From assembly GCF_033100135.1 (NCBI RefSeq), contig NZ_CP136920.1:2227001-2291000 (forward strand): a stretch of 64,000 bases of DNA. The letters are read 5' to 3'. Positions 6,210 through 47,975 of the stretch are shown one piece after another. Within the stretch, counting starts at the first letter, position 1; each line of letters starts with the position of its first letter. This DNA is from Rubellicoccus peritrichatus. GTDB lineage: Bacteria > Verrucomicrobiota > Verrucomicrobiia > Opitutales > Cerasicoccaceae. The notes under the pieces are model-generated. The model ran no database searches. It worked only from the letters and a program-made list of their open reading frames with translations, and was not told where the DNA came from. The position numbers were made by a program, and so were the translations under genes.

Positions 6210-9200
6210 CTAGAAAGTGTCGGAAATCACCAGGTTATCAAATTGCAGTACGGCGCTTTGAGTGGTTGGACATCTGAAATAGATATCCGTCAAATTCGTG
6301 TTGAGGTGGTTTTGAAAACGGACTCTGTTGTCGATCAACAGTGTCGTTCCGCACCAAAGTGAATTTGAAAGATGATCAACCGTGTGGGAAAGCCCATCCG
6401 GTCCGATGTAGGTTTGGGTGGTTCCGGATGCATTCATATACCACACAACATGAACGAACGAACCATCGGCTGGATACTTGATGGTATTCATGCCATTGAT
6501 ACGGAATCGGAATAGGTTTGTGCCTCCGCCTTTGATTATTAATTCAAAGGTCGTGGAAACACTTGCCGTAGTTCCGGAGTAATCGCTCTGGTAGCTGTAA
6601 TCTCCAAGCCTGAAAGAGGCCAAATCGGTATAGGTGTCTATGTTATTAACTGATACATCGAATTCAACTTTCATGACTGAAGGTGAACCGGCAAAGTCTG
6701 TGTAGCGCATGAAACCAGAACCGGCATTACTGCCACCCAGACCTGATCTGACAATCTGCAATGCGCCATTGTTGATGGACCATGTGCCGCCATCGACTTC
6801 CGCACTGATGTCATTGAACTGATTAGCAGAAGGATTTGTGATATCAAAGTAACTCGAGACGGCGCTGGAGCTGTTGAAGTCCTGAACAAAGATGGCCGAG
6901 CTGATCGTAAGATCAAAGTCATCAAAGGTCGCATAGGTTGTTTCATTGACCGACCCACTACTGGAGAAGAGTCCGACGTTCACACTTGTGCCCAGCCCGG
7001 TTAAGGTGACGCTATCGATTTGTATGAAACTCAACCCGTCTGCTGAAACAGCGATATTGATAATATCGCCGACACGTTCGAGCATCAACCATCCGTTGGG
7101 GTAAGTGTATGATTCCGTCGCTATCGTCTCACTGCTGGAGCCCCCTGTCGTGGTGCGTGAAATGATTGCGTAGTTCGTTGCCAGGGTAGTGGCGAGAGCA
7201 ACCATGCGTGCATCGGCGTTGTTGTTTTCTCGCACCATAATGCCAGCACGTGGAGCAGAACCATTGCTTTGCAAATCTGTTACGCGAACGACGATGGAAA
7301 AGTCTCCATCGACTGTGTCTTCTTCGAAATGAAAACTGTCAACTGTCCCCGAGAGTCCTGATCCTGAACCAGAGACTTCCCAATCTGTCGTTTGTAATAC
7401 ACGACTGGAGCCGTTACTATTGGAACCGATATTGATTCCAGTTAAGCCTTCGCTGGTCAAGGTATTGCTCAGCGTATTGCTGTTAACCGTTACGGTGACA
7501 AGACCCCAGTCCTGCTCAACTCCATCGGTTACCAAGTAGGTGAATTCGTCGACACCATAGAAACCAGGATCTGGTGTGTAGGTTATATTCGAACCAAGTA
7601 AGCTGACCGAGCCATGATGCGCATCACCGATACTGTAAATCGAAAGCGGGGCAGGCTGTGAGTCGCTATCGGTATCGTTGGCCAAGACATTGATTGTTGC
7701 TGTGGTGCGTTCATTGGTTACGGCTGAATCATCGGCTGCCACTGGCGGATCGTTGACAAGGAAGCTGTTTTCGATCTTCAGATTATCGAGCGTAATAGTA
7801 ACGGGCAGATGGGTTGCCATGCTGAACCGGAAGTTCTCGATAGCATTGACCGCATAGGCATTGGAACGCTGGATGTTATCCAACAGGAGCGTGCCATTTA
7901 CCCAGAGTGAGGATGCTTCATCATCAAGTGTGTGCGAAAGGGCATCGGGGCCTGTGTAAGTGAGGGATGCTCCTGAGGTGTTGACATACCAGACCGCACT
8001 GACGGGAGTTCCGTCATCGGGAAATCTGTCACTATTTTGTCCTTTTATCTGGAAACGGAATTGACCCGGACCACCGCCTTTGATGACAAGTGAGTTCGCG
8101 ATGTCTGATGAGGCACCTCCAGAATTGTAGTCAAAATGACTACTCCAATTTCCAAGATCGAAAGCCGCAATATTTGTATAGGCTGTTACATTTTCAACGG
8201 AAACATTGAAGGATACTTTCACGATGCTTGGTGGATTCTCAAAGTCGGTCAGGCGGTAGAATCCTGCACCGTTACTCTCACTATTGATTCCGGTCCGAAT
8301 GAGTTTCAGTGCCCCTGAATCAATCGACCATGTGCCACCATCACTTTCTGCACTGATATCAGTGAAAAGGTTTCGTTCTGGCAGAAGTGTATTGATGTAA
8401 TCGGCTACTACTGTTGATTGCGAGAAGTCCTGCTGGAACAGTGCTTCCTGCGCCGGAACAATTTCAAGGTCGGCGGCGATCATTCGTGCCTGGGCGGCAA
8501 AAAGACCGACGTGAACCGTTTCTTTCAATCCGTTTATCGTCGTTGTATCAATTTCTGTGAAGCTGATTCCGTCCTCCGAAACAAGGTAGATTATCGTGTC
8601 TTCGAAACGAATCATCCTTAGCCAGGCACCAGGATAATTATAGGAGATGCCGGTATTGAACTCGATTAAGTTGCTGCCAATTGAAGTGCGCGCTGCATAA
8701 CGATACTCTGAGTCAGTGCTTGTTGTAAGCATCGCAGTGCGGGCATTATCTTCGGTATCTTCGCGAATCATAATGCCTCCACGCGGAGCCGCGCCCATCG
8801 CAATAAGATTTGCTACTCGCAGTTGGACTGAGAAGTTGCCACTGAAAGTCATTTGTTCGAGTTGAACGCCGTCGCTTGTGCCACCGAGACCTGAGCCGCT
8901 GCTGTTGACTTCAAGGTCTCCTCCTGAAAGCAGTCGACTGTAACCACTTGAGCCGCCGATATTGATACCAGTAAGGCCAAGGCTGCTCAGATTGCTGAAA
9001 AGAGAAGTATCATTGACCGTGATGTTGACTGTCGCGGTATCAGAATCTTCGCCATCAAGTATCGTGTAATCGAAGGAGTCCTGACCGAAGAAGCCAAGCT
9101 CTGGCGTATAAACCAATTCATTGCCATATTGCTCGACAGTTCCATTGGATGGAGCAGTGAAGCTGTTCAGTATTAAACCATCAGGCCCGTTATCCGGATC

Positions 9201-12200
9201 GATATCATTTGCCACTGGTGCTATCAGTAGTGGCTCGCCTTCGTTTACGGCAACCGAATCATCAATTGCATTGGGCGCAAGATTCGTGTTCGGGTCCTGG
9301 CTGATTGGGAAGGTATTTTCTATAATGATGTTATCGAAACCTATGGTTGAAGCATCATTTGCCTGAACTTTAACACGGAATGTTTTGAGGCCTGTGGCAT
9401 TGTAGGTTGCCGGGCGCGTATGGTTTGCAACAAGTAACTCACCATTGAGCCAATAGGATGACTTCAGGTTTTCGATTTGGTGGAGGTTGCCATCGGGCCC
9501 TTCATAGGTTTGTGTTTGGCCTGAGTCGTTCAGATAAATGACAATCGTACTTGGTTCACCATTCGCGAGTGAATCTCCATACTTGGAGCCGCCAATGGAA
9601 AAGTGATAGAGGCCTACACCTTTCCCTTTGATAGCCAATTCACCAAACTTATGGGCTGATACACCGCCACTACTATAGTCAGAGACAGAATCAAAGTCAC
9701 CATGAGTAACCACGACTGAGATGCCACTTGTCGATGCATTAGAAACAGAGTAGTCAAAGCTGAATTTCATAACACTGGGTGGTCCCGCAAAGTCGACTAG
9801 ACGTGCAAAGCCCGCGCCAGAGTCTGCTGTGCTAATACCCGTACGTTCAATTTGCAGAACACCGTCTTCTATTGACCAGGTTCCGCCATCCGCTTCTGCA
9901 ACTGCTTCGCTGAGTTGGTTTTGCGATGGTGATGGATTGAAGTAGGTTTGTAAGTCCGATCCGTCTGAAAAGGATTGCGCGAAGAGAACGTTACTACCCA
10001 GGCTTTGATTCGTAACGGAGAAGTTTTGCAGATTTCCGCTGACATGATTATTTACATTGCCGCCTGTTAAGAAAACTCCCGCCTCAATCTTGACCGGTAG
10101 GCCTGGCAGCACACGCCGACCGATTGTTGTGTAACTTACGTTGTCGGCTGACACCTGCATCTCAATGATCGTGCCTGTACGAACGAGACGCAACCATCCA
10201 CCAGACGTAGTCGTGCTGCCTTTGGTTGAAACACCTCCGGTTTCCTTGCGTGAGAAGTATACATGCTCACCAGATGCATTAAAGCCAAGCGAAACGAAGC
10301 GACTATCTGCACGAAGACCTTGGCGAATCATGACTCCAACTGAGCCATTTCCGAGAGCTGCAAAATCACTGACTTGTGCCGTGAGTGTGAAATTCCCAAG
10401 AATGGATTGACTCTCGAAAAGGGCACTGTCCCGTTCTCCTGCAAAGCCTTTGCCTGTGCCACGCATCTCTGCGGTTACACCATCTGCAAGCACGCGGCTC
10501 CCACCTTCTACAAAGTTACCGATTGGGTTGCGATCCAAGCCCCAGCCAATGAGATCGTTGGCAGTGGCTGTATTATTCACAGTAAAGTAGATTCGGGCAA
10601 TGTCATCGTCTGTGCCATTTGTCACGGTATAGGCAACGGAATCCTGGCCATAAAATCCGGAGTCAGGCACATAGCGAACATTATCACCAACGATTGTGGC
10701 AGTGCCATTGCTTGCTTCTCCAATTGAAACAATACTTAGCGTGCCCGGTCCTGTATCATTGGCACGCACATCAACATCTACGGATGTGCCTTCGTCGAGA
10801 CTGGCAGAGTCGTCGAAAGCCACTGCGCCATCCAGGGTTTGCTTGTCGAGGCGGAAAGCGCGAAGTTGACTTGGATACATTTCAATCGAAATGGAATCAG
10901 TGCTGTTGCTGATCACGTCGCCAGTTGCTGCGTCAACCAGTAGTCCGCGGTCCGGTAGCGTTATTGTAACCGATACATCGTTGCGGGCTGTGTTCACAAC
11001 GCCGAGGTAAGTGCCATAGCCTTCAGTTTCAATAGATCGTACTACGACCGCTGGATCTGAGGATGCTGTCGCCAGAACCGTGCTGGGCAAGGCGGGTAGG
11101 GCAAGAAAGGCCTGATTAAATGCACGGACATAAGCAGGGAAGCCTGGATTGAATCTCCAGGAGCTAAGATAACCGACGTAGCGGGGGTCTCCATTGGCGA
11201 AAGCAAGGGCTTCTTCAAACATGACATAAGGGCCAGTGTATTCACAGTCTGATACAAAGTAACCTAATGGGTCTATTTCATTGGGGCCGTTGAGATCAAT
11301 GGTCATGGCATCTTCATTCAAGCAAAAGTGTCGGACAACTGCGGTACCTGACGGTGTTTTGAAAGCCTCAAGTGCATCGCCATCCGATACTGTGTAAGCG
11401 CGATTGAAAGAATAAGTCAGCATTCCGCCTTCGTTGGCGGTATAGTTGTGGGGGTCATTCTCGACATCTGCATGTTGCCACTCGTAGCCTCCATAAGTGT
11501 CACGAGGTACAGTTAATCCACGAAAGTGTCGATCAACATCGAGCGCGTCCTGCAAGCTGGTGGCTGAATAGCCTGCGGTATTCCATGCTGTAACATCTTC
11601 AGCAACAAGATCGTACTGGCCGGGAGGTAGATCTGATTTTCCTGTCTCTGTTGCATCGGAAGTGTATAGGATATTGGCATCTGAGTTGACCCCTTGTTCG
11701 CGCAAGTGATCCCGTATTTCGTTGATGAAGTCACGGCGTTTCTCAAACCACCAGGACTTATAGTCTTCGTAACGTGCTTCGGAATCTCTTAGTTGCTGAC
11801 GAGTGATTGGAATACCTCCGTTCCTCTCATTTGCGTAATCGGTGAAGTTCTTCTCATTGAAAGACATTGGCATTTGCGAAACGCGTGCCCGGAACCAGGC
11901 CCCGATGAAATTCACTTGGTCTTTATAACGCGATATCGTTGCGTCGAGGAGCAACTTTGCATCAGCAATTGTATCAGAATCTGTTATATCGGCCCGAGAA
12001 GATTCGGCCCAGCTGATATGTGTATAGATGGTTGATCCGTTGAGCGGAGTTGCCCGCTTTTGAGGCCCCAGGCTGTCATCCGCTCCGCCTTTACTGCCAG
12101 AGTACTCATAGTAGGGGAGGACATCAAAATCATAGTTAGTCAGCATATCCAGAACATTGCCCCAGCGTTCTGGCTCACGTGCTACAAAATACCATTCATT

Positions 12201-13109
12201 CCCACCGCCTGGTCCGGAATCAAACCCCTGATTACTGCCGAACTCAAGCAAGTCTGTTGTGTATGTGTTCATGCCAAGGAACTTCATTCGCTTTGCTTTG
12301 TATTCGAACCAGTCGGTCGAATCTGCGACGCCACGTTGCGTTGGGTCTTTGGACCAGATAACACCATCGGCCATTTCTTCACGATAAAAGATATGGCGAC
12401 GTGGCAGGTCGTTTGATGGTAGATTCAATTGAGCGGTGTAGGTTGATTCATCAGGTGCTTCATAGAGACGGATTTTGGAAACAGCCGCACCATTTGAGAG
12501 TGGTGCTTCACGGTTGGCATACTGTGCTATGATAACTTTGAAGCCATCGGCTGGCAAATCAGGATGAGCACCTCCGGACCTTGGGCGAACAACGTCGCTA
12601 AATCGATCATGCAAATGAAAGAGGTTCTGCCAGGTTTCAAACTGTCCGGACATCGGCATATTCAAGGACTCGGGATTTGTGCCTACATAGGGTGCATCAA
12701 GGGCATCTCCGACGGTCTTGCCGGTATGCAGTCCTCGGCTCATCGAGCCCCCCGTATTAATGATGTACATGGTTCTCGACACATCCTCAGGGTATTCAAC
12801 CTGGAGGACATAGGCTTTGCCGGCCTGAAGTCCCTTATTGGCACCGATACGATAGGCAAAGTAGCGTGCTTCTGAGCCCACAGGGTTGGGTATTACGCGA
12901 GTTGCGACACCTGAGATTGTTTGAATCTCACTAACGCCAGACGGGAATTCTTCGAAAGGGTGAGGATCGTTTATGTCACCACAGTCAATTTCATCGACAA
13001 GAACGAGGTTGTCGAAGGGAAGTGTTGGATGTACGGGAGCTGCATTGCTTATAGCTGAAAGGCTGATGAGAGTTAGGTTCATCAATATTAGATGTATTTG
13101 GGCTCTCAT
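6210..13109 (-). CDS. Giant secreted protein: putative novel glycoside hydrolase plus three cadherin/laminin/repeat blocks
   Basis: About 2299 residues. The ATG at 13109 is preferred over one 69 bases upstream because it starts directly with a signal peptide ending SAISNAAPVH. Residues about 20-750 form an enzyme-like region homologous to 19454-22228, sharing FYREEMADGVI, MNT-x3-DLLEFGS, VLPYYEY, RVSQMPMSF and VRHF-x-LNE, and ending in a small beta-domain typical of glycoside hydrolase C-termini. I do not recognise the family; a hydrolase role is inferred from the acidic conserved motifs and context. After this come three tandem units of about 510 residues, each a cadherin-like domain (NEGEPLLIAPVANDIDPD type), a DUF1349-like laminin-G-type domain and a 225-residue repeat module starting near QDF and GGTWSI. 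The last module ends the protein. Probably secreted or surface-attached. Divergent from 13820 across a shared control region. Confidence 0.65.
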   Translation of the reverse strand: MRAQIHLILMNLTLISLSAISNAAPVHPTLPFDNLVLVDEIDCGDINDPHPFEEFPSGVSEIQTISGVATRVIPNPVGSEARYFAYRIGANKGLQAGKAYVLQVEYPEDVSRTMYIINTGGSMSRGLHTGKTVGDALDAPYVGTNPESLNMPMSGQFETWQNLFHLHDRFSDVVRPRSGGAHPDLPADGFKVIIAQYANREAPLSNGAAVSKIRLYEAPDESTYTAQLNLPSNDLPRRHIFYREEMADGVIWSKDPTQRGVADSTDWFEYKAKRMKFLGMNTYTTDLLEFGSNQGFDSGPGGGNEWYFVAREPERWGNVLDMLTNYDFDVLPYYEYSGSKGGADDSLGPQKRATPLNGSTIYTHISWAESSRADITDSDTIADAKLLLDATISRYKDQVNFIGAWFRARVSQMPMSFNEKNFTDYANERNGGIPITRQQLRDSEARYEDYKSWWFEKRRDFINEIRDHLREQGVNSDANILYTSDATETGKSDLPPGQYDLVAEDVTAWNTAGYSATSLQDALDVDRHFRGLTVPRDTYGGYEWQHADVENDPHNYTANEGGMLTYSFNRAYTVSDGDALEAFKTPSGTAVVRHFCLNEDAMTIDLNGPNEIDPLGYFVSDCEYTGPYVMFEEALAFANGDPRYVGYLSSWRFNPGFPAYVRAFNQAFLALPALPSTVLATASSDPAVVVRSIETEGYGTYLGVVNTARNDVSVTITLPDRGLLVDAATGDVISNSTDSISIEMYPSQLRAFRLDKQTLDGAVAFDDSASLDEGTSVDVDVRANDTGPGTLSIVSIGEASNGTATIVGDNVRYVPDSGFYGQDSVAYTVTNGTDDDIARIYFTVNNTATANDLIGWGLDRNPIGNFVEGGSRVLADGVTAEMRGTGKGFAGERDSALFESQSILGNFTLTAQVSDFAALGNGSVGVMIRQGLRADSRFVSLGFNASGEHVYFSRKETGGVSTKGSTTTSGGWLRLVRTGTIIEMQVSADNVSYTTIGRRVLPGLPVKIEAGVFLTGGNVNNHVSGNLQNFSVTNQSLGSNVLFAQSFSDGSDLQTYFNPSPSQNQLSEAVAEADGGTWSIEDGVLQIERTGISTADSGAGFARLVDFAGPPSVMKFSFDYSVSNASTSGISVVVTHGDFDSVSDYSSGGVSAHKFGELAIKGKGVGLYHFSIGGSKYGDSLANGEPSTIVIYLNDSGQTQTYEGPDGNLHQIENLKSSYWLNGELLVANHTRPATYNATGLKTFRVKVQANDASTIGFDNIIIENTFPISQDPNTNLAPNAIDDSVAVNEGEPLLIAPVANDIDPDNGPDGLILNSFTAPSNGTVEQYGNELVYTPELGFFGQDSFDYTILDGEDSDTATVNITVNDTSLFSNLSSLGLTGINIGGSSGYSRLLSGGDLEVNSSGSGLGGTSDGVQLEQMTFSGNFSVQLRVANLIAMGAAPRGGIMIREDTEDNARTAMLTTSTDSEYRYAARTSIGSNLIEFNTGISYNYPGAWLRMIRFEDTIIYLVSEDGISFTEIDTTTINGLKETVHVGLFAAQARMIAADLEIVPAQEALFQQDFSQSTVVADYINTLLPERNLFTDISAESDGGTWSIDSGALKLIRTGINSESNGAGFYRLTDFENPPSIVKVSFNVSVENVTAYTNIAAFDLGNWSSHFDYNSGGASSDIANSLVIKGGGPGQFRFQIKGQNSDRFPDDGTPVSAVWYVNTSGASLTYTGPDALSHTLDDEASSLWVNGTLLLDNIQRSNAYAVNAIENFRFSMATHLPVTITLDNLKIENSFLVNDPPVAADDSAVTNERTTATINVLANDTDSDSQPAPLSIYSIGDAHHGSVSLLGSNITYTPDPGFYGVDEFTYLVTDGVEQDWGLVTVTVNSNTLSNTLTSEGLTGINIGSNSNGSSRVLQTTDWEVSGSGSGLSGTVDSFHFEEDTVDGDFSIVVRVTDLQSNGSAPRAGIMVRENNNADARMVALATTLATNYAIISRTTTGGSSSETIATESYTYPNGWLMLERVGDIINIAVSADGLSFIQIDSVTLTGLGTSVNVGLFSSSGSVNETTYATFDDFDLTISSAIFVQDFNSSSAVSSYFDITNPSANQFNDISAEVDGGTWSINNGALQIVRSGLGGSNAGSGFMRYTDFAGSPSVMKVEFDVSVNNIDTYTDLASFRLGDYSYQSDYSGTTASVSTTFELIIKGGGTNLFRFRINGMNTIKYPADGSFVHVVWYMNASGTTQTYIGPDGLSHTVDHLSNSLWCGTTLLIDNRVRFQNHLNTNLTDIYFRCPTTQSAVLQFDNLVISDTF

Positions 13110-13254
13110 GGTATAATAGGGGCGATGTAGATGAAGGCTTTTTGCCATCACGGATATGTTCGAGACAATCTGAGTCATAGGGTACTAGGGTTCAGGGTTT
13201 AAGGAGCTTTATGTAGAATCTTCTTAAGGGAAATAGACTGGATTTTTAATTTTT

Positions 13255-13268
13255 CTATAACATTATAG
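13255..13268. promoter_or_regulatory. Operator-like palindrome (degenerate copy)
   Basis: CTATAACATTATAG is a 14-base palindrome with only the central pair unmatched. It resembles the AACGTTATAG sites nearby but has CA in place of the central CG. It lies about 145 bases upstream of the leftward start at 13109 and contains TATAAT on the minus strand, so it may overlap a -10 box. Confidence 0.4.
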
Positions 13269-13476
13269 TAATATGTTGTTGAATTGCTGATGCTCTCAGC
13301 TTTTGAAAATCGAAAAGAAATTAGTCCTGGTTTGCCTCTTTGAGGCCTTATTTAAATGGGGTATTTAGCTTATGGGCGATTTTAAAGAGATAAGTTTCTC
13401 TGAGTATCATAAGCTATGTAAGCCTTCTGGTGGCGCAGATAATGATAAATAAGATATAGAATTCAAGTAAAAAGTA

Positions 13477-13486
13477 AACGTTATAG
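13477..13486 (+). promoter_or_regulatory. Operator-like site AACGTTATAG
   Basis: Within the context GTAAACGTTATAGT. The same core occurs at 13674 (reverse), 18349 and 19437, always between genes of this locus. The central CG and partial dyad symmetry fit a LacI-family operator; TATAGT could alternatively be a -10 box. Confidence 0.5.
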
Positions 13487-13673
13487 TGGTGTGCTTTAAG
13501 GCTGATTATTCTGGTTTCTGCTCTGGTATCCTGCTTGCGGAAGGATTTGCTGCCGATTATTATGGGCAAAAGTGAGCTTTTTATGGTTCATCGACTGATT
13601 GTCTCGCTGAACATGATTTATGGAGATGGACGATCGATTTGCTTTGCTCTGGTTAAAGGATTGACAGAGTTGA

Positions 13674-13683
13674 CTATAACGTT
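13674..13683 (-). promoter_or_regulatory. Operator-like site AACGTTATAG, reverse orientation
   Basis: CTATAACGTT on the plus strand, inside a perfect 10-base palindrome ATAACGTTAT (13676-13685). It starts eight bases after TTGACA at 13661-13666, where a repressor would block RNA polymerase at a promoter for the gene starting at 13820. Confidence 0.5.
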
Positions 13684-13819
13684 ATCAATATTGGTCATAT
13701 TATCTAAAAAACCCCATTGAATACGTAAATGAAAAATCAGTTTAAATGCTTATGTTATAGATGCTTAAAGACTTTTTTTATAGCCCTCATTAGTGCTCTA
13801 TAATGTTTTCTTTATCTTG

Positions 13820-16800
13820 ATGAAGAAGTCTTTTTCAAATCATGACAGTGGTTTTGCGCTTATTGTAGCAATATCGTTAATGGCATTCATCATTCTTATG
13901 CTCTTGAGTTTGTCTGCTCTTGTTAGTTTGGAGTTAGCCTCTACGACAACGGATCGAGACCGGATTCGCGCAGAAGAAAATGCACTTCTAGGGCTGAATG
14001 TTGCATTGGGTAATATACAGCGTTTATTGGGGAAGGATCAGCGGGTTAGTGCTTCTCCATTATTGCTGGATAGAAACATTTCAGCTGGTGATCCACGGGA
14101 GAATTGGACTGGTGTTTGGGATAGTGCAGAATTTCTTTCTGATGGCATTACTCCAAATCCTAATTTTGGGCAGCATCTTGGTTGGTTGATCTCAGGTTTT
14201 GATGACGCTGGTTTTGCAGGTGGCGTGCCTGCTTTTTCTTCATCATTCAATGGTGATGGTGAGCTGAGTGATGTAAGTAATGCCAAGTTAATTGGCGGGG
14301 GTACGGTTGATCATGGAGCTGGCAGCAATTTGGTAGACTATATTGCTGCACCTCGAATCGAAATTGATGGTACTTCCAGCTACGCATATTGGGTCTCTGA
14401 TGAAGGGCGTAAAGCTCAAGTCAATCTCGCAAGTCGAGATGATCTTGGTGAAACTTATACTGGTACCACGGATAATATTAAATCTCGCTTCTATCTTAGT
14501 AGTCCTGCTCGTTTTAATGCGAGTGCTTTGTCTGGTCTTGAAGATTTGCAGTTGGAAGGGGATGAGGGTCTGGCCAGGGCGGTTTTTAGATCTAATAGTA
14601 GTAGGGATCTAATTCTTGGTGAACCTGGCGATGTGATTGACTCTAAATGGAGCGATGCACTTCCTTCTTTCCATCACGACCTCAACTACGGCTCAATAAC
14701 TCTTCAGACGGATGTCAGAAATGGAGGATTGAAGAGAGATCTAAGCCTTTTGTTTGAATTGGATGATGCTGATTTTGCGAGAACTCCTTATTCTGGCGAG
14801 GCAACAGATTCAGTTTTTGATAATTGGGCTGGGAGTGAGCTTCCGTTGACAGATGGTAGTGATTATGTTGACCCAGCTACTGGGGATCAGGTCAGTTACT
14901 TGTTTAAGGAGCCTGTTCCTGAGTATGTTGGAAAGGATGCATATCTAAGGGGCCCAACATGGCATTACTTGCGAGATTTTTACCGACTATATAAAGATGT
15001 TGATGGTAATAGTACCCGGCCTGTGATCAATACCAGGCCTTTTGCTCCAAATGCGGGTGATTTTGCAAGTAAAGGAGGTGAGCGTGGTTATATTTGGACA
15101 ATGGAGTCGGATAACGGTGGAGATATACAGAATAAGGATAGCTATGTGAATACAGTGGTGCAGACGAAGCATGATCCAAATGAGAAAGTGACTCGCCTTA
15201 CCGGGCATGAAATTATGCCAATGCTTAACAGAATTGTATTTATTTTTTCTTTATACGAAGATCGTTCGGTTGATGAATGGGTTTTGCGTGCACCTGGGGA
15301 AACGACAAGTGATGGTAGTGTTGCTAAGGAGTACATGTTCGATACTACAGGCGGCATTACTAATGCGATTGCTCTAGTTGTTGACCCAATTGTTTATCTT
15401 TGGAATCCATATAATGTAGCGATTGAATTTGATGGTGGGTTCAAGGTGCATTCGACCTCATTCCCATTTATGATTTCGATTGCTCCTCCTGGCACTGATA
15501 TTTTGCCGCCTATTTCGGACCCTACAATTCCTCAAATGACTGGGCACATCGCAACTTTTGGGCGAATGAATTCGAGTAACTTCGGTAAGCTTGATATTGT
15601 TGTTGGTGGCTCTGGTGATATCATTCGGATGGAGCCGGGGGAGGTGAAAGTGTTCTCATCGGCAGAAAAAGCACCAATTCCTTTGGCTGATTTACCTAAG
15701 GTTAACACGGAAAATTCATCGGTTTCTTCGCCGATGTTTCGAGTGATTGAGGGTTTTAATCAGGACGGTGGTGTTTTGTTAGGGCGCCGTGAAAACACTA
15801 AAGAGTCTTTTCCAGATGAAGGAGTATTGCATCAACTTAAGACGTCAAGTTCGCAAAGCTTGGAGGTGAATGTATTCCCTTGGGGATCTGGTTTCTTTTC
15901 TGATAACAATAATGACGGTATAAATGATAAGGATTTTAGATCTCGCACTTCGGTTGGCTCGGTTAATGAATTCGCCTATGTTCCGAGTAATGTGCTGAGT
16001 CAGGGGGGTAGCTTAGTTGAAACTGATACTTACCTGCAGCGCCTTTTTCTTCAGCTGTATGGCCCATCAAATGCCACTGGTGCTCGTGAGCCGGTTATGG
16101 ATCTGCTTTATGGTGACTCTGGGACAGGTGGGGACTTTCCGCTTGTTGTGAAGCCCTCTGAAATTGACAATCAACCGAATCGTAAGTGGCCGTTTTTATT
16201 TTACGGAACTTATCAGAATCCAGTTGAACCTGACTTAGATAGAGTAGAGTCACCTGCTGAGTTCGTTGGGACAATGTCTCCATTTGCGCCAAATGTGGAT
16301 GCGCAGTTTTCAAACTTTCGTGTATCGAATCCACCGTTCTCTGTGCAATTGGGGCATGCTGATAGTTACGACGAGATTCAAGAGTTGGATGGTCGCGGGT
16401 TTTTTGGAACGGGTTACTCTGCATCTGGGGAAACTCACTTGGTGATTTCGGAAATACCTACTTATCCATTGCGCTCTTTGGCTTCACTGCAGCATGCTCG
16501 TATTTCACCATCCAGTTATATGCCAGGGCAGGCGATTGGGAATTCCTGGGCTACAGGTTTTGTTGGTCGCGACCAGAAGTATGATCGGGATGGTAGGTAT
16601 ACGCAGTATGATATTTCGTATTTAAGTAATGAAGCGCTTTTTGATTCATATTTCTTTTCCTCATTGACCCCTACGATGGATCTCACGGGAGATGTTCGTG
16701 AGGCAATGGATTTGAAGGCAACATTATCAGCGCTTGTTCAGGCAGTTTCAAGCGAGGGGCGCATGCCGGAATTAAGTAATGAGCGATTTGAGTACGTTGG

Positions 16801-17638
16801 TGGGACTGACGCTCTTGATATTAGTAGTGGCGTATCTACTTTTACAGATAATCTTTCGGGTGTAGATGGTTTTAGTAAGACTGCCAGCTATTTCGGTGTT
16901 AGGGGAGGTTTTAATATTAATAGCCTTTCAGTTAATGCATGGGATGCTTTCCTGGCGTCTACACTTGGGACTGATTACGATTACCTTGATCCAGTGAGTG
17001 GTTTTTCAACGAAAGCGAATAGTGATCTAACTATTCTGCCTAGGTCTACGTTGCCTAATGCGGATTCTAGTAATGAATGGTTGGGGCCTAAGGGATTGAC
17101 GGGTATTCAGCGTCGTCAATTGGCCGAGGCGATTGTTGCTCAGGTCGAGCTGCGAGGTCCGTTTTTGAGTCTTTCTGATTTTGTAAATCGTGAATTGGCG
17201 ATTGCAGATGAAGGGAAGGTTGGTCCTATTCAGGCAGCTATTGATAGTTTGGATATTAATGACGGCCAACAGTATGAAAATGCCTATATTAAAGGTGTTT
17301 CTAACGATTTTCATGTTGATAATGTCACGGCAAAGACTGGTGTGGGGACTCCGCAGTACCTGGCCCAGGCGGATGTCCTGACTCCGCTTGCGCCATATCT
17401 TTCTGCACGCTCAGACACTTTTGTTGTGCGTTCTTATGGAGATGTTGAAGACCCGTTCACGAATGAGATTAAATCCAGGGCATGGTGCGAGGCTGTAGTT
17501 CAGCGTATTCCGAAATTCGTGGATGAGAGTGAAGCGCCAGATACCCAACTTCCTAATTTGACGCAGTTTGATAACCAGAATCTCGGTCGACAGTTTCGTG
17601 TGATTTCTTTCCGCTGGCTTAATGAAGATGAAGTTTAA
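13820..17638 (+). CDS. Pseudopilin-anchored giant protein, Verru_Chthon cassette A-like
   Basis: About 1272 residues from the ATG at 13820. An upstream ATG at 13793 is less likely because the prepilin-like N-terminus begins MKKSFSNHDSGFALIVA. A short basic leader, G-F junction and one long hydrophobic helix (ALIVAISLMAFIILMLLSL) are followed by a charged heptad-like stretch (RIRAEENALLGLNVALG). This pattern matches type IV pilin/type II secretion minor pseudopilins and the Verru_Chthon cassette A family as I know it. The rest is a large extracytoplasmic region. Near the C-terminus FLSLSDFVNR, RAWCEAVV and GRQFRVISFRW are shared with 53025-56552, and their layout recalls GspK. It overlaps the next gene by 17 bases. 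Third codon positions look more A/T-rich than in the housekeeping genes, a possible sign of transfer or relaxed selection. Confidence 0.65.
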   Translation: MKKSFSNHDSGFALIVAISLMAFIILMLLSLSALVSLELASTTTDRDRIRAEENALLGLNVALGNIQRLLGKDQRVSASPLLLDRNISAGDPRENWTGVWDSAEFLSDGITPNPNFGQHLGWLISGFDDAGFAGGVPAFSSSFNGDGELSDVSNAKLIGGGTVDHGAGSNLVDYIAAPRIEIDGTSSYAYWVSDEGRKAQVNLASRDDLGETYTGTTDNIKSRFYLSSPARFNASALSGLEDLQLEGDEGLARAVFRSNSSRDLILGEPGDVIDSKWSDALPSFHHDLNYGSITLQTDVRNGGLKRDLSLLFELDDADFARTPYSGEATDSVFDNWAGSELPLTDGSDYVDPATGDQVSYLFKEPVPEYVGKDAYLRGPTWHYLRDFYRLYKDVDGNSTRPVINTRPFAPNAGDFASKGGERGYIWTMESDNGGDIQNKDSYVNTVVQTKHDPNEKVTRLTGHEIMPMLNRIVFIFSLYEDRSVDEWVLRAPGETTSDGSVAKEYMFDTTGGITNAIALVVDPIVYLWNPYNVAIEFDGGFKVHSTSFPFMISIAPPGTDILPPISDPTIPQMTGHIATFGRMNSSNFGKLDIVVGGSGDIIRMEPGEVKVFSSAEKAPIPLADLPKVNTENSSVSSPMFRVIEGFNQDGGVLLGRRENTKESFPDEGVLHQLKTSSSQSLEVNVFPWGSGFFSDNNNDGINDKDFRSRTSVGSVNEFAYVPSNVLSQGGSLVETDTYLQRLFLQLYGPSNATGAREPVMDLLYGDSGTGGDFPLVVKPSEIDNQPNRKWPFLFYGTYQNPVEPDLDRVESPAEFVGTMSPFAPNVDAQFSNFRVSNPPFSVQLGHADSYDEIQELDGRGFFGTGYSASGETHLVISEIPTYPLRSLASLQHARISPSSYMPGQAIGNSWATGFVGRDQKYDRDGRYTQYDISYLSNEALFDSYFFSSLTPTMDLTGDVREAMDLKATLSALVQAVSSEGRMPELSNERFEYVGGTDALDISSGVSTFTDNLSGVDGFSKTASYFGVRGGFNINSLSVNAWDAFLASTLGTDYDYLDPVSGFSTKANSDLTILPRSTLPNADSSNEWLGPKGLTGIQRRQLAEAIVAQVELRGPFLSLSDFVNRELAIADEGKVGPIQAAIDSLDINDGQQYENAYIKGVSNDFHVDNVTAKTGVGTPQYLAQADVLTPLAPYLSARSDTFVVRSYGDVEDPFTNEIKSRAWCEAVVQRIPKFVDESEAPDTQLPNLTQFDNQNLGRQFRVISFRWLNEDEV

Positions 17639-18323
17639 TATTAAAAGTCATATTTACCTGAGCACTGTTTTTCTTGCATGCTCAGTTTTGTGTGCGTCAG
17701 CGCAGCTTGAAGATGCAGTCAATATCACTTTTAGGTGTATCTCGCTGGATTCTCCAATTAGGGTCAATCTTTACACTCAGTTGGAGGGGGGGGAGCCGAT
17801 TCGAATCTACGCCAACTCAAGGACTAATTGGATTAAGTATTCTGGCCCTAATCCAATTGTCTTTTATCGAGACTCGAATCCAACTGGTGAGCAGAATGTT
17901 CGTGTCCCGGTTGGACAGTTTGCGTTCTCCAAGGGAATGGATACTCCTCTCCTTTTGTTTACACAATCTGAAGTAAAGGGGCACTATAGGATCACTTCTA
18001 TTGATGATGACCTTGAAGTTGCGCCAGCCGGTAGCTACCGTATATTTAACTTTACGCAAAAAGATATTGCGGGAATTGTAGGGTCGCAGAGATTTCGAGC
18101 TACTCCGGGAGATAGCGCACTAGTAAGAAATGCTGAAGACGAAGCTGTTGAAGTTTCTGTTCGTTTGGCTGAGAATGCAGAAGACGGTCCTGAGCGTCTT
18201 TATGCGGCGACATGGACTTATTCGCCTGATTTTCGTTATTTGATCTTCATTGTTCCAACTGGCGATCGTACTCGCGGCAACATCAAGATTCGTAAAATCA
18301 CTGACATTGTTGCTGAAAGCTAA
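17622..18323 (+). CDS. Small secreted partner of the pseudopilin-like giant
   Basis: A 233-residue protein with a signal peptide (about 1-27, SVLCASAQLED). It has no domain I recognise. It contains PIVFYRD, a VPVGQF stretch, a GSYRIFNFTQKDI segment and a C-terminal RYLIFIVPTGDR. The gene at 56554-57306 has the same plan (PMVFYRK, LPIGEC, GSVRFVNLTP, MRMLFIGYA) and also directly follows a giant pseudopilin-like gene, so the two are paralogous partners. The 17-base overlap with 13820-17638 implies translational coupling. A periplasmic or surface-exposed beta-rich partner is the simplest reading; the biochemical role is unknown. ATG at 17622 is followed by another at 17628; either is possible. 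Confidence 0.55.
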   Translation: MKMKFNIKSHIYLSTVFLACSVLCASAQLEDAVNITFRCISLDSPIRVNLYTQLEGGEPIRIYANSRTNWIKYSGPNPIVFYRDSNPTGEQNVRVPVGQFAFSKGMDTPLLLFTQSEVKGHYRITSIDDDLEVAPAGSYRIFNFTQKDIAGIVGSQRFRATPGDSALVRNAEDEAVEVSVRLAENAEDGPERLYAATWTYSPDFRYLIFIVPTGDRTRGNIKIRKITDIVAES

Positions 18324-18348
18324 TTTTTTCCTTGGCATGGGTAACGTA

Positions 18349-18358
18349 AACGTTATAG
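18349..18358 (+). promoter_or_regulatory. Operator-like site AACGTTATAG with possible promoter
   Basis: Context GTAAACGTTATAGTT, 25 bases past the preceding stop and about 140 bases before the PEP-CTERM gene. TTGGCA at 18332-18337 and TATAGT at 18354-18359 are 16 bases apart, a plausible sigma-70 promoter whose -10 box overlaps the motif. Confidence 0.5.
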
Positions 18359-18499
18359 TTTTATGAAAATGTGATCTCCAGCTTCTTACATTGCGAGTCT
18401 GAAACCCCTCACAGGAGTCGCCATGATGCGTGATGCTTAGATGAAATTATCACCACTAACCCCAAATTGAATAATATGAATCCACTCAATCTTATCGCT

Positions 18500-19369
18500 A
18501 TGAAGAAAAATATATCCATGAAATCCTCATTGGTAGCGGCTGCGGCCGTTGCGGTGGGCACATTATCCACTGAGGTGCACGCGATACTCATTGCCTACGA
18601 GGGTTTCTCCACTCCGGCAGCGTATACAGCAGGCACAGACCTTGCAACGCAAACAGGTGATGGAATTGGCTGGACCAGTAACTGGTCAAACACGCTTGCT
18701 AATGGTAGCTCTGGTGTTGTTACGAGTGAATCTTCGAGCCTTACATATAGCACATTGCCTACGACTGCAGGGTCTGCAGTAGGGCCTACATCGGGTAACA
18801 CGCGAGTTGATACATACACACGCTCATTCAGCCTCGGTTTCTCTCCAACAGATGGTGACGAAGTATGGATGAGTGCATTAGTTGATCTCACCACAGATGG
18901 TGATCGGGGCTGGCAAGTCGCACTTTCTAATACAAATACTTTTGGTAGTGGTGTCGGATTTGGTGCTTCAAATGGTAATGCTCAGACGGTTGCAGCTAGA
19001 ATACAGGGACAGTCAGGCAGTGTTGTTGCTAATAATGTTGGAGTGAATTTCTACGTAGCCAGAACAAGCTTTACTTCTGGAAACCCTGTAGTGGACGTTT
19101 GGGTAAATCCTGCTCTGACTGAGGATTTAGCTTCTGTTGCTGTTGGAGGCGGTGATTCAACATTTACGCGTAGTTACGGAGCGGTTGGTAGTATCAGTAA
19201 TGTTGTTTTTTATTCACATCAGGATAATCGGATTGTATACGACGAAATCCGTATTGGCACGACGCAGCAAGATGTTGGCATTACTGCGATTCCAGAGCCT
19301 TCCGTTTATGCCGCCGCTTTTGCAATCGGTGCTCTAGGGGTTGTTATGATCCGTCGCCATAAGATTTAA
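18500..19369 (+). CDS. PEP-CTERM sorting domain protein
   Basis: About 289 residues from the ATG at 18500; upstream starts at 18467 (TTG) and 18476 (ATG) are possible. A signal peptide (ending STEVHA) is followed by a serine/threonine/glycine-rich beta-type domain and a classic C-terminal tail: IPEPSVY, a hydrophobic helix and the basic end RRHKI. Such tails are cleaved and processed by an exosortase, which is not in this window. The middle domain resembles the lectin-like/laminin-type domains of verrucomicrobial PEP-CTERM proteins but has no family I can name. It is preceded by an operator-like site at 18349 and followed by a good terminator, so it is probably a single-gene unit of the same regulon. 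Likely destined for the outer surface or exopolysaccharide layer. Confidence 0.75.
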   Translation: MKKNISMKSSLVAAAAVAVGTLSTEVHAILIAYEGFSTPAAYTAGTDLATQTGDGIGWTSNWSNTLANGSSGVVTSESSSLTYSTLPTTAGSAVGPTSGNTRVDTYTRSFSLGFSPTDGDEVWMSALVDLTTDGDRGWQVALSNTNTFGSGVGFGASNGNAQTVAARIQGQSGSVVANNVGVNFYVARTSFTSGNPVVDVWVNPALTEDLASVAVGGGDSTFTRSYGAVGSISNVVFYSHQDNRIVYDEIRIGTTQQDVGITAIPEPSVYAAAFAIGALGVVMIRRHKI

Positions 19370-19389
19370 TTGGAATACGACAATTTCTA

Positions 19390-19425
19390 TGGTCCACAGT
19401 TTATATGCTGCGGGCCATTTTTTTT
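19390..19425 (+). terminator. Rho-independent terminator after the PEP-CTERM gene
   Basis: Arms 19390-19399 and 19408-19417 pair at nine of ten positions, counting one G-U pair, around an eight-base loop. Eight T follow (19418-19425). It ends the PEP-CTERM transcript 20 bases past its stop codon and leaves only 28 bases before the next start. Confidence 0.8.
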
Positions 19426-19436
19426 AATTAAAGTAA

Positions 19437-19446
19437 AACGTTATAG
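19437..19446 (+). promoter_or_regulatory. Operator-like site AACGTTATAG directly before a start codon
   Basis: Context GTAAAACGTTATAGTC; it ends seven bases before the ATG at 19454 and follows the upstream terminator. If TATAGT (19442-19447) is a -10 box, transcription would begin at or next to the start codon. If it is an operator it would cover the promoter. Confidence 0.5.
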
Positions 19447-19453
19447 TCTAGCC

Positions 19454-22228
19454 ATGTTGATTCCCTCATCATTTAAAAAGAGCTCATTGTTAAAATTCTC
19501 TGCCTTTGCTGCAATGGTCACGGTGGCAAACGCTCAAGGTGTATCAAATGTCATCGACACACAAATTGTTATTACGCCTGAAATGGTGTCTCCAGGTAAG
19601 CAAGCGAGTGGATTGTTCGACGAGCAGGGGATAGGAGAAAATCCTTTCATGCTCGCGGCTAAAACTGAGTGGAATTCGGGGACCAAGGCACCACAAGAGT
19701 TCATTGTTGATTTGGGCAGCGAACGTCATATTTCGAGGATCATGTTTTGGGATTTGAATGGCCGCGCAGATGTCATTGTGTCAGCTGGGACCCCTGGTAA
19801 TTGGTCAGAAATGCTGACTGAGGATGGTGTTGGCTATAAGACCTGGAAACCGCATGAAGATCTCGATACCAAGACTCGCTATCTTCATGTGAAAAAACTT
19901 TCTGATGGTGGCGCTTTTAGTGAAATGCTTGTTTATGAGTACACTCCCGAAGGAGCTATTGCTATTTCTGCTGCCAAGCAAGAAGCCGCTGAGCGCGAGG
20001 CAATGATTAGCACTGCATTAGCCGAAAAAGATAAGCGCCCAAGCGTTGATACAGGAACTCTTTTTGGCGAACTACCTTTAGTTGATGAGATTGTAACTGC
20101 CACAGATTCCAACCATACGTTCAAAGAATTGCCTGAAGGTATTAGTGTCGTAGAGAGTATATTAGGAGAAAAAGCACGAGTGCTTCCCAATGTGGGAGAT
20201 GGGGTGAAATACTTTGCTTACAAAATTGGTGAGGGTAAATATCTGGAACCGGGCAAAGCGTATTTACTAACCGTTGAATTTCCAGATGATAAGCCACGCT
20301 CTTTTCATATTGCCAATCGAGGGGCAGACATGACTCGTGGTATCCAGACGGGGCAGGCTTTAGGAGATACTATTTTTACATACACAAGCACGAATCTTGA
20401 ATCGCTCAACGTTCCTCTTTCACAGGAGTATATGACATTTCAGCAGCTCTTTTGGCTGAATGATACTTTTGATGGAATCAAGCAGGCCCGTGGAGCTTCT
20501 GAAGATCGGACATTTTCGCCGGTAGGAGGGTTCTTTGTTGTTATTGGGCAGCCAGGTGCAAAGCAGGCACCTTTATCTGCGGGTGCTGCGATTTCGAAGA
20601 TTCGATTGTTTGAAGTGCCTGACCCTGATGCATTCGCTGTAAATCTTCGTTTGCCCGAAGGCTTACCTCAACGGCATTTGTTTTATCGTGAGGAAATGGC
20701 CGATGGTGTCATTAACTCAAAGGAGCAGGCTGAGCGTTCGGTTGATAACCCAGCCGATTGGTATGAATACCATATGCGTTTGATGAATTTTCTCGGGATG
20801 AATACTTTTTCAAAGGACTTGCTTGAGTTTGGTTCCGTTCAGCATTGGGACGTGGAAAATCCATCATGGTATGTCCCGCATAAATTTCCTCACCTTTGGG
20901 ATGAAATTGTAACCACTGCAAATGAGCATAACTTGAATGTTCTACCATATTATGAATATGGAGGTAGCACAGGCAAACAGGGCATGGCCAAACATGCTTT
21001 GGAGAATAAGCTGGTTATGCCTCTTAAGAACAAAAACTACACACATGTTAAATGGGTTGAAAATAAGCGTGCGGATTTAACTGATCCAGCAGTGCTCAAG
21101 GAATTCAAGCATATGCTCGATCTTACTATTGGTAAGCACAAGGATAAGGCGGAATTTGTCGGTGTATGGCTACGCCCGCGTGTTTCACAAATGCCGATGA
21201 GTTTTTCCGATGCGACCTTAGAGCGTTTTACCAGCCAGACAGGGCGAGATCCAATGGTTAGAAAAGACTTGGCTGAAGATCCCGAAGCTCTGGATGCTTA
21301 CTACACGTGGTGGTTTGGTAAGCGCAAAGAATTTCTTACTGCGCTTCAAGGTCATCTGAAGGAAATGGGAGTCGGTGTTGATGGTGATCCAACCGTTCTT
21401 TTTATGGCCGTTCCCAGTGAACCTGTTCCGACCTTTAGAATCAAGGGGCAAAATCGCCCTGTCGTTACAGATGATGTTGCCCTTTGGGAGGATGTTGCCA
21501 CACGACATGAAGATTACGATACATTCCGCGTGATCGATGTTGAGGAAGTTCCGCAAAGCCAGATGTACTTGGAGGCTATTATCAATCCTTACAAAACATG
21601 GGGTTCGTGGGAATGGCATCATGGCGCTCCTCAATCAGATCCGCAGAATTATAAAGATGTCGAAGGCGTAATGATGGTATATCCATACAATCGTAAGTTT
21701 ACAGTTAATGACCCTGACGCACTCGACTACTTCAGGAATGATTCTGGATTGGCAATGGTTCGGCATTTTCCCTTGAATGAGAATACACTTGATCATGTGA
21801 CGGGGTATTTTGTGGCAGATTTTGAGCGTGCCGGACCTTACCAGATGTTGCCGGAGGCTTTGGCTGTTGCCAATGGAGATCCATGGTATCTCGGTTATAC
21901 TGCAGGCCATACATTTAACCGTGCATTTCCTGAATACGCTCGCCGCTTTAACGCAAACTATTTGGCTCTCCCTGCTTTGCCAAGCGAAGTTGTCGATGAT
22001 GCCGCAAGTGAGGACGATGTTGTCGTTCGTAAAATTGAGACAGATGGTAAGGGCACTTACGTTGCCATTGTGAACACTGGCCTGGAGCCTTTGAAAGATG
22101 TTAAAGTGAAATTGCCTGAAACCGGATATGTCGTGGCTGCTGCCACTGGAAATGTTGTTTCTCAAAACGCATCATCAATCACACTTGATCTCGATCCTGC
22201 AGAATTGAAAAGCATTCATATCCAGTAG
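19454..22228 (+). CDS. Putative novel glycoside hydrolase with N-terminal F5/8-type domain
   Basis: 924 residues from the ATG at 19454, chosen because it starts the signal peptide (ending TVANAQGV); the frame is open further upstream but runs through the terminator. Residues about 35-180 look like a discoidin/F5/8 type C sugar-binding domain (EFIVDLGSERHISRIMFWDL). The remaining ~740 residues are homologous to the N-terminal third of 6210-13109: RVLPN, YFAYKIG, GAAISKIRLFEVPD, FYREEMADGVI, DLLEFGS, VLPYYEYGGS, RVSQMPMSF, GSWEWHH, VRHFPLNE and a C-terminal beta-domain with VAIVNTG. I know no named family with this set. Alternating strands and conserved acidic residues suggest a TIM-barrel hydrolase; EE in FYREEM and E in WEWHH are candidate catalytic residues (inference). 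It lies 21 bases upstream of a mutarotase-fold gene, so the two are probably cotranscribed. Confidence 0.6.
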   Translation: MLIPSSFKKSSLLKFSAFAAMVTVANAQGVSNVIDTQIVITPEMVSPGKQASGLFDEQGIGENPFMLAAKTEWNSGTKAPQEFIVDLGSERHISRIMFWDLNGRADVIVSAGTPGNWSEMLTEDGVGYKTWKPHEDLDTKTRYLHVKKLSDGGAFSEMLVYEYTPEGAIAISAAKQEAAEREAMISTALAEKDKRPSVDTGTLFGELPLVDEIVTATDSNHTFKELPEGISVVESILGEKARVLPNVGDGVKYFAYKIGEGKYLEPGKAYLLTVEFPDDKPRSFHIANRGADMTRGIQTGQALGDTIFTYTSTNLESLNVPLSQEYMTFQQLFWLNDTFDGIKQARGASEDRTFSPVGGFFVVIGQPGAKQAPLSAGAAISKIRLFEVPDPDAFAVNLRLPEGLPQRHLFYREEMADGVINSKEQAERSVDNPADWYEYHMRLMNFLGMNTFSKDLLEFGSVQHWDVENPSWYVPHKFPHLWDEIVTTANEHNLNVLPYYEYGGSTGKQGMAKHALENKLVMPLKNKNYTHVKWVENKRADLTDPAVLKEFKHMLDLTIGKHKDKAEFVGVWLRPRVSQMPMSFSDATLERFTSQTGRDPMVRKDLAEDPEALDAYYTWWFGKRKEFLTALQGHLKEMGVGVDGDPTVLFMAVPSEPVPTFRIKGQNRPVVTDDVALWEDVATRHEDYDTFRVIDVEEVPQSQMYLEAIINPYKTWGSWEWHHGAPQSDPQNYKDVEGVMMVYPYNRKFTVNDPDALDYFRNDSGLAMVRHFPLNENTLDHVTGYFVADFERAGPYQMLPEALAVANGDPWYLGYTAGHTFNRAFPEYARRFNANYLALPALPSEVVDDAASEDDVVVRKIETDGKGTYVAIVNTGLEPLKDVKVKLPETGYVVAAATGNVVSQNASSITLDLDPAELKSIHIQ

Positions 22229-28950: not shown

Positions 28951-29071
28951 TTTACGAATTTCAGTTTCAAATAGCATTTGCGATGTGACCTTGTGATGCT
29001 TTGGTCTGGCTTGCGTTATACTTCCATTTCGAATGGAGCTTGCTCTCAGCCTTCTTCGAAAATACCCCGTA

Positions 29072-30034
29072 TTATTCCGCTTCCATGGACTTCGAATCGC
29101 TGTCAGCACTGATTGGTCCATCAATATAAGGTCCTAACTCAGAGATGGCTTCACGATAAGCCTTTGGCGATTTGTCTGCTTGGTTTTTAAACCAAATACT
29201 GAAGGACGATGCCTGAGGAAAACCCAGTAAGTAAGAGATTTCTTTGATGGGAGTATCTCTCAATTTAAGTAAGCGCTTTGCCTCCCGAAATCTTCGCCGC
29301 TGGATAAACTCGTTGGGACTCATTTCAAAAGCTTCAATAAATATCTGTTCCAATCTCCTCCAGCTCAATTGCATCTGATTTTCAATATGGCGCTTATCGA
29401 GTGGAGTGCTGAAAGAAATATTTTCGAGTATCTGAATGAACCTCAAACTTCGGGGACTGGTTGAACCGATAATCGTAGATGCTGCTCCTAAAGCTTCGAG
29501 TCGATCAACCAAGCTCGCAATCCATTCCTGAAATACATGACGAAACCGCAAGTGAGCTTGTAAGCTGCATTTCTTCTTTTGCATCGCTTCAACAAAAGAA
29601 ACACTCACTTGGTTTTCTCCATGCAATTGATGAAACAGTTTTTTTGATATCTCATAAAGGCGATCATTCGCCTGTTTGGCATCCTGCAAGTTCAATGAGT
29701 TAAATAGAGGTTTTCCGGTCAACCATTCCGCCTCATAGCCAATCGACAGAATGTTGGTTTGAGGATGGATACGCTGCAAGCGAATGCCAGGCTCAACAAA
29801 AAACCAATTTCCCGGAAAACAGGAATAGACGCTCTCTCCAAACTTCAAATCAACCTGCCCTTCATGAACCAGAAATGCACTGCTGAGCCCTTCAAAGGGA
29901 CCATCCCAAGTTTGATGGTTTCCAGCCGGACTTGTCGGTGATTCCCGTACTTGTGCCCAATAAACCCAAAGGAACTCGGTTCTTAGTAGATCCCAAGTGT
30001 CTTCGCATTGCATTTTGAACTGGAGCTTATCCAT
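29072..30034 (-). CDS. AraC-family transcriptional regulator
   Basis: About 320 residues from the ATG at 30034 (a TTG two codons upstream is the alternative). The N-terminal part looks like a cupin-type sensing domain (FLVHEGQVDLKFG, CFPGNWFFVEPG). The C-terminal ~100 residues hold the paired helix-turn-helix of AraC/XylS proteins: RRLEQIFIEAFEMSPNEFIQ followed by EAKRLLKLRDTPIKEISYLLGF split across the second helix pair and FSIWFKNQADKSPKAYR at the end. It is predicted to bind a small ligand, probably a sugar, and activate nearby genes such as the M14 peptidase downstream or the PEP-CTERM gene upstream. Target sites were not identified. Confidence 0.85.
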   Translation of the reverse strand: MDKLQFKMQCEDTWDLLRTEFLWVYWAQVRESPTSPAGNHQTWDGPFEGLSSAFLVHEGQVDLKFGESVYSCFPGNWFFVEPGIRLQRIHPQTNILSIGYEAEWLTGKPLFNSLNLQDAKQANDRLYEISKKLFHQLHGENQVSVSFVEAMQKKKCSLQAHLRFRHVFQEWIASLVDRLEALGAASTIIGSTSPRSLRFIQILENISFSTPLDKRHIENQMQLSWRRLEQIFIEAFEMSPNEFIQRRRFREAKRLLKLRDTPIKEISYLLGFPQASSFSIWFKNQADKSPKAYREAISELGPYIDGPISADSDSKSMEAE

Positions 30035-47743: not shown

Positions 47744-47975
47744 CTCGCCAAATTCAAGATGGGATGAGAATGAGTCAAGATATATTTATGGTAAAATAAC
47801 ACATTTCCGTCGCATTGGGTTTTCATAATCAATTACTTGATCTCAACATTATGTTTCTAATTTTGAACTAAATAGTATCTACGCAGATAAGCTATTTTTT
47901 GAAATGCCAGTCAGTTGTCTCTTGAGATGTGAAAGTGATATGCGTATGATTTTATTGTAGTTCAATGAAAGACTT

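Follow-up and report, generated by a model that had tools for sequence, protein, structure and literature searches.

Three described groups lie closest to the proteins considered here: GH42, which shares clan GH-A with GH35; GHL10 (PF02638), represented by Cwp19 (5oq2, 5oq3); and GH153, which hydrolyses deacetylated PNAG and is represented by the C-terminal domain of PgaB (6au1, 4p7n). In clan GH-A the acid/base Glu follows strand beta4 and the beta7 position is that of the nucleophile, and in GH42 the region after beta4 carries Asn-Glu. GHL10 has an Asp-Asp-Tyr motif after beta4 (Asp196 of Cwp19), and D164, D165 and Y166 are invariant in an alignment of 10 GHL10 sequences. For GH153, PMC5933820 gives D474 of B. 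bronchiseptica PgaB as the probable catalytic acid and as the residue that mutagenesis singles out, and the beta7 Glu of PgaB is not shown there to be catalytic. At the C-terminus of beta7, E. coli PgaB carries Glu607; a further residue used below is Gly328 of Cwp19 (both from PMC5765458).

Here we follow up a preliminary description of a 64,000-nucleotide stretch of the Rubellicoccus peritrichatus genome (hereafter the window), which had picked out two of its genes as a possible new enzyme family.

Two related proteins and their shared core

The two genes encode the proteins which we call P0001 and P0002:

19454..22228, + strand: P0001, 924 aa; signal peptide (by eye), weak discoidin-like domain at ~70-150, family core at 197-924
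6210..13109, - strand: P0002; signal peptide, family core, then three Big_9/cadherin and three DUF1349 stretches

The preliminary description had reported that they share about 740 residues, and BLASTP bears this out: P0001 204-923 aligns with P0002 55-777 with 312 of 742 positions identical (42%, E = 0.0), and every motif that had been quoted lies inside this alignment. The gene at 6210-13109 is indeed coding, but on the minus strand, which is open, while the plus strand is full of stops. The longer ORF there (13178) contains 13109 as an internal ATG, and a start at 13109 gives the better-looking signal peptide (by eye). The family had also been thought to occur twice, but the organism's own genome (one contig, 5.8 Mb) holds three copies, the third (G000:C1:4418872-4421031) being ~2.2 Mb from the window, inside a 2474-aa ORF.

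The flanking domains differ between the two proteins. The discoidin-type domain proposed for P0001 is sub-threshold in Pfam (F5_F8_type_C, E 0.045), but the segment itself is found again, at 28-40% identity, in further proteins from related genomes. The adhesion-like blocks proposed for P0002 are recovered by Pfam as three Big_9/cadherin-like and three DUF1349 stretches, and these adhesion-type repeats make up about two thirds of the protein.

Neither core has a convincing match in Pfam or NCBIfam (release of June 2026), and the good matches of both proteins fall in the flanking domains. Fifteen core members compared with Pfam also gave no real match, only single chance-level ones in two of them (E 0.05, 0.09). 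Against PDB sequences (2026 copy), phmmer finds none for the core and a profile reaches chance level only (best E 0.1, 0.29). Matches to Kindlin_2_N, Lum_binding and a protein O-mannosyltransferase (E 0.05-0.16) were discarded as chance. The earlier reading that the core belongs to no recognised family therefore holds for Pfam, NCBIfam and PDB sequences, and none of the three gives it a convincing match to a described non-catalytic family. A search of open-licence papers found no description of the family.

Distribution and phylogeny

Within the taxonomic family, 6 of 10 genomes match and 5 contain the core (G004 matches only in the discoidin-like segment). The threshold of E 0.001 is reached by 12 of 286 genomes in the class and by 59 of 387 in the phylum, many through partial or distant matches only. 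In a search of genome contigs, 54 of 70 pattern-matching stretches encode relatives; they come from Verrucomicrobia, Planctomycetes, Lentisphaerae, Kiritimatiellia, Armatimonadetes, Myxococcota and Bacteroidota (Bacteroidales), and also from some unassigned or oddly assigned bins. The family thus occurs in bacterial groups known for polysaccharide breakdown. Some members (e.g., L037, L042, L053 and L066) are ORFs of only ~740-770 aa. Six core copies are found in Cerasicoccus frondis NBRC 105381 (G003), of the same taxonomic family; L035 and L072 are two family members ~12 kb apart on contig 13 of C. frondis.

Our main alignment (A2) contains 53 sequences: both cores from the window plus 51 loci. 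Three of the 54 loci were left out, L084 because it is partial, and L080 and L082 because their match hulls do not stay in one frame. In a quick tree search, P0001 clusters with Cerasicoccus and with one sequence from Phycisphaeraceae; the group of P0002 comprises the third copy and L063. Because they group apart in this quick tree, P0001 and P0002 look like old paralogues, not the result of a recent duplication.

Predicted fold

AlphaFold2, with the 53 sequences of A2 as input, models the 728-residue core with a pLDDT of 94.7 and a pTM of 0.95. In this model we recognise a beta-rich domain at the N-terminus (~1-203), then a (beta/alpha)8 barrel (204-645), and after it a beta domain at the C-terminus. 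A separate model of the barrel reaches a pLDDT of 90.7. The preliminary description had named a TIM barrel with two opposed conserved carboxylates as what would support its proposal, and a (beta/alpha)8 barrel is what both the full-core and barrel-only models contain. The domains map to the window as follows:

20042..20647, + strand: P0001 beta-rich domain, N-terminal to the barrel (DSSP on the model)
20648..21985, + strand: P0001 (beta/alpha)8 barrel (AlphaFold models, fold matches, conservation)
21986..22225, + strand: P0001 C-terminal all-beta domain (DSSP on the model)
11082..12425, - strand: P0002 barrel (column mapping from A2)

When the barrel is compared with solved structures, all 1000 aligned chains reach Z 8, which is typical of barrels; the information lies only in how the top rows are ordered. 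PgaB/GH153 (6au1, Z 22.8, 3.3 A, 326 aligned) and Cwp19/GHL10 (5oq2, Z 22.7, 3.8 A, 316 aligned) are tied at the top, followed by GH42 (5e9a, Z 21.4, 1.4 below the tied pair) and GH35 (~19.5). Foldseek with the barrel ranks Cwp19 first (E 1.9e-9, TM 0.49/0.59). The closest solved folds are mostly hydrolases, with one beta-1,2-glucosyltransferase among the best 50 rows.

With the whole core, Foldseek places 5axh (GH66) on top (E 4.8e-12) and GH13 next, at TM ~0.25-0.35 and rmsd 12-28 A, and the comparison with solved structures includes a few GH13 rows at Z 10-11. We provisionally set GH66 and GH13 aside as nearest relatives: TM is ~0.3, there is no Pfam match, and both are absent from the barrel's best 50 Z rows.

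The family thus shares its barrel fold with PgaB, at ~8% identity, and with the Cwp19 type. Unlike PgaB, it has extra beta domains on either side of the barrel, and Pfam finds no PgaB-type deacetylase domain in P0001 or P0002. When the full core is used, the GH42 structure 5e9a aligns with both the barrel and the beta domain that follows it (Z 13.5, 388 residues), but the P0001 family has an N-terminal beta-rich domain instead of the GH42 arrangement.

Relationship to GHL10

Pfam finds no GH42 match in P0001 or P0002, and no GHL10 (PF02638) match in P0001, P0002 or the 15 core members at E up to 1. Compared directly by profile (hhalign), the core shows no significant similarity to GHL10 (0.3-0.4%), and GH42 gives 0.5% or a weak 7.5% (E 0.0047), the weak similarity running from beta2 to beta4. 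Because these comparisons are weak or not significant, we rejected membership of the core in GHL10 or GH42.

More remote relatives fall into further subfamilies. Subfamily B (same phylum, ~1200-1400 aa) is homologous over the full core, with its four best members at E 8.4e-60 to 6.5e-56, and is 26-28% identical to P0001 over the core (five sequences). Unlike the core family, it has GH2_N-like stretches in front, and E413, E458, D541 and E720 are not conserved. Subfamily C consists of 1200-1500 aa proteins with laminin-G domains, which a profile of subfamilies A and B matches at E 4.7e-36. All four subfamily C proteins scanned match Pfam GHL10 at sub-threshold level (1.1e-3 to 1.9e-5), and hhalign of subfamily C with GHL10 gives a probability of 47% (E 1.9e-4, 204 columns, around beta4-alpha4-beta5). 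The family is not wholly isolated, because this bridging subfamily ties the core to GHL10. It therefore lies near GHL10/GH153 but is no member by curated criteria. L155-L158 (and L163 and L164, by eye) belong to subfamily C, and there the window family's carboxylates seem to have been lost or to have shifted position.

Conserved residues and putative active site

From A2 we picked 32 well-conserved positions by hand, of which 18 are identical in 53/53 rows. These include E413, E414, D417, E501, D541, R574 and R576, and further along the core W619, W620, R624, E656, E720, N775 and E776 (P0001 numbering). The codons that matter most below are:

20693-20695, + strand: E414
20954-20956, + strand: E501
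21173-21181, + strand: R574-x-R576
21779-21781, + strand: E776

In a wider, 15-row alignment (seven subfamily A, six B and two more divergent proteins, D), no row departs from Glu at E414 or E776, and 14 rows have Glu at E501, the remaining one Asp. R576 is kept in 14/15 and R574 in 13/15 (K and T in two D proteins), and E656 becomes D in seven and G in one. E414, E501 (with one D) and E776 thus persist in three of the four subfamilies, the exception being subfamily C, without clear retention of the three.

In the barrel-only model, E776 follows the penultimate barrel strand; strand numbers beyond beta5 are our reading of DSSP, which lists two extra strands. Residues just past it (379-381, 385-388) have a pLDDT <50 in this model and ~87 in the full-core model. 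Gap-free offsets from the ends of the aligned ranges (arithmetic, no superposition) place PgaB Glu607 at model residue 379-381 and Cwp19 Gly328 at 377, and E776 is residue 378. E776 seems to sit at the catalytic position of beta7, roughly where PgaB has Glu607 and where GHL10 probably has a Gly. Strand order in the model suggests an opposed-carboxylate arrangement.

The residues after beta4 set the family apart. R574-x-R576 lies at the beta4 end in 53/53 rows, as placed by the model's DSSP and weak hhalign matches, and probably replaces the usual beta4 acid. Both Arg residues stand where PgaB has its probable catalytic Asp (D474/D466), the Asp-Asp-Tyr motif of GHL10 is missing, and the clan GH-A acid/base Glu is absent. 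A weak hhalign correspondence pairs the Asn-Glu region of GH42 with Arg-x-Arg.

Gene neighbourhood

Both window copies have esterase-like neighbours, and P0001 also has a mutarotase-like one:

1754..6025, - strand: exported esterase-like protein, 1423 aa, with PKD and DUF1349 stretches; next gene after P0002
22250..23242, + strand: aldose-epimerase/mutarotase-like protein, ~20 bp after P0001; kept in L081 (57%)
23389..26292, + strand: exported esterase-like protein, 967 aa, with a PKD-like stretch; kept in L081 and L033 (54%)

The preliminary description had called these neighbours esterases and a mutarotase. Matches of that kind exist, but all are below curated cut-offs: e_dPHAscl_type1 at 4.5e-7 and 7.4e-10 for the esterase-like proteins, and DUF4432 at 0.0015 for the mutarotase-like protein (3e-4 for its L081 homologue). 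The gene order recurs elsewhere. L081 keeps P0001 together with the mutarotase-like and 967-aa esterase-like proteins, no homologue of the mutarotase-like protein was found in L033, and P0002 and the 1423-aa esterase-like protein recur as a pair both next to the third copy (57%) and in L063 (58%).

Some relatives have other carbohydrate-related neighbours. L031 and L035 share a six-gene run (56-74%) upstream of the family gene; it includes genes resembling those of a sugar-acid pathway and encodes a lactonase-like protein, two SDRs, an enolase-type sugar-acid-dehydratase-like protein and two others. Beside the family gene, both also have a gene for DUF2961, which we take to be GH172, and L031 has GH116 and GH94 genes as well. 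A GH94-like match is present in L081 and a partial one at the locus end of L033, which has a DUF2961 gene too. This genome contains two GH94 genes over cut-off, one of them ~6 kb from the third copy, with a pseudopilin-like pair and a LacI-type regulator in between; the window has no GH94 or DUF2961 gene. The subfamily B member L088 adjoins a sialate O-acetylesterase-type gene.

Overall, neighbour families are diverse: among 148 ORFs taken from 40 of the 54 loci, no family is dominant as a partner. Among the first 25 of 74 and of 84 families, SBP_bac_10 (DUF1559) occurs 7 times, Peripla_BP_3 5, LacI 4, AXE1 2, and sulfatase, DUF2961 and GH10 once each.

Elsewhere in the window, an M14-type zinc carboxypeptidase-like protein (Peptidase_M14, 2.9e-8) is encoded at 27244-29124 on the minus strand, near the polysaccharide locus, and two minus-strand ORFs at 45353-50701 look GH95- and GH78 (rhamnosidase)-like by eye.

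A pseudopilin-like cassette

Two further genes lie between P0002 and P0001:

13793..17638, + strand: giant pseudopilin-like protein with a weak Verru_Chthon_A N-terminal match
17622..18323, + strand: its 233-aa partner

The giant protein is kept upstream of P0001 orthologues in L081 (49%) and L033 (52%), and the partner is 56% identical in L081 and 49% in L033 (partner homology was compared for the window pair against L081, L033 and L092 only). The genome has ~27 copies of the cassette (60 matched pieces, grouped by hand), including a second window copy at 53004-57306. After this second cassette, three sulfatase-like ORFs (57343, 59709 and 61567; by eye) occupy 57343-63027, with a smaller ORF between the first two.

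We looked downstream of 25 of the other 26 copies, omitting L190, which is on the wrong side of its cassette and holds the third copy of the family. Each of these 25 stretches has a same-strand ORF of 220-277 aa within ~130 bases of its start. Their 83 further ORFs of at least 200 aa include, by Pfam, six sulfatases, two GH42, two beta-porphyranase domains and one each of GH1, GH43 and GH29, while 81 control ORFs from 20 stretches at round positions include three sulfatases and no glycosidase, both tallies being taken among the first 25 of 95 and of 113 Pfam families. The cassette tends to precede polysaccharide-degrading genes, which fits P0001, and it is possibly a dedicated export or surface system for polysaccharide-degrading enzymes. 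A literature search for 'Verru-Chthon cassette' found no paper containing this term.

Proposed function and alternatives

The two proteins had been put forward as a candidate undescribed polysaccharide-active enzyme, and this is supported by the library negatives, the barrel fold, the glycosidase structural neighbours, the invariant carboxylates and the glycosidase genes near some relatives. We are confident, short of certainty, that the family consists of carbohydrate-active enzymes. Probably, P0001 and P0002 are exported glycan-cleaving enzymes with a rearranged active site, of a family near GHL10/GH153 which is undescribed in Pfam, NCBIfam and PDB sequences.

From the computed family, fold, conservation and context, we infer the following catalysis, residue roles and substrate. 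The GHL10/GH153-like (beta/alpha)8 barrel, flanked by its two beta domains, would bind a glycan across its C-terminal face and cleave glycosidic bonds. E776, after probable beta7 (structurally Glu607 of E. coli PgaB), would be one catalytic carboxylate, paired with either E501, at the end of beta3, or E414, at the end of beta1. Arg574-x-Arg576 may serve as a substrate clamp for an acidic (sulfated or carboxylated) or acylated glycan. The neighbouring esterase-like proteins, and the GH94/DUF2961 enzymes in relatives, would have the same target, perhaps a polysaccharide from algae. We offer these specific residue roles tentatively, at a little under an even chance.

The barrel might instead be a binding module, because the beta4 acid, on which PgaB catalysis most depends, is lost, nor is the beta7 Glu of PgaB shown to take part in catalysis. 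The proteins would then be non-catalytic carbohydrate-binding or scaffold proteins, with a degenerate GHL10-like barrel that binds glycans and linked esterases that do the chemistry. This agrees with the Arg which replaces the beta4 acid of PgaB, Cwp19 and GH42 in all rows of A2, with the adhesion-type repeats that dominate P0002, and with the esterase-like neighbour at each window copy. However, subfamily B retains E414, E776 and E501 (or D there) at only 26-28% identity to P0001, the many polar residues that are identical across rows would be unusual in a module without catalysis, and in some members ORFs of ~740-770 aa leave little room for another domain. We consider the binding role unlikely.

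Slightly less likely still is other chemistry on glycans in the same barrel (lyase, phosphorylase, transglycosylase or esterase). Some members do have a GH94-type phosphorylase gene or esterase-like genes as neighbours, and hydrolases of this fold do not usually carry Arg-x-Arg at beta4, but the nearest solved folds are mostly hydrolases, the beta-1,2-glucosyltransferase notwithstanding, and we found no pointer to such chemistry in the sequence. Recent CAZy families may lack Pfam models, so the family could already be numbered in CAZy without a Pfam, NCBIfam or PDB entry, but the PDB sequence searches (phmmer and profile), the NCBIfam search of both cores and the open-licence literature all speak against this, making it very improbable and a family outside the CAZy numbering very probable.

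The boldest form of the glycan-cleavage reading, which is possible although we lean against it, is that the proteins found a new glycoside hydrolase family in which Arg-x-Arg clamps anionic or acylated glycans and E776 carries out hydrolysis together with E501 or E414; subfamilies A, B, C and D would then make up one large overlooked enzyme superfamily of PVC bacteria and their neighbours. If this were true, the catalytic constellation of the family would have no known counterpart in its superfamily. The link to GHL10/GH153 also gives a place to a group of 1200-1500 aa proteins without known function. If active, P0001, P0002 and their relatives would be an undescribed, widespread family of secreted enzymes.
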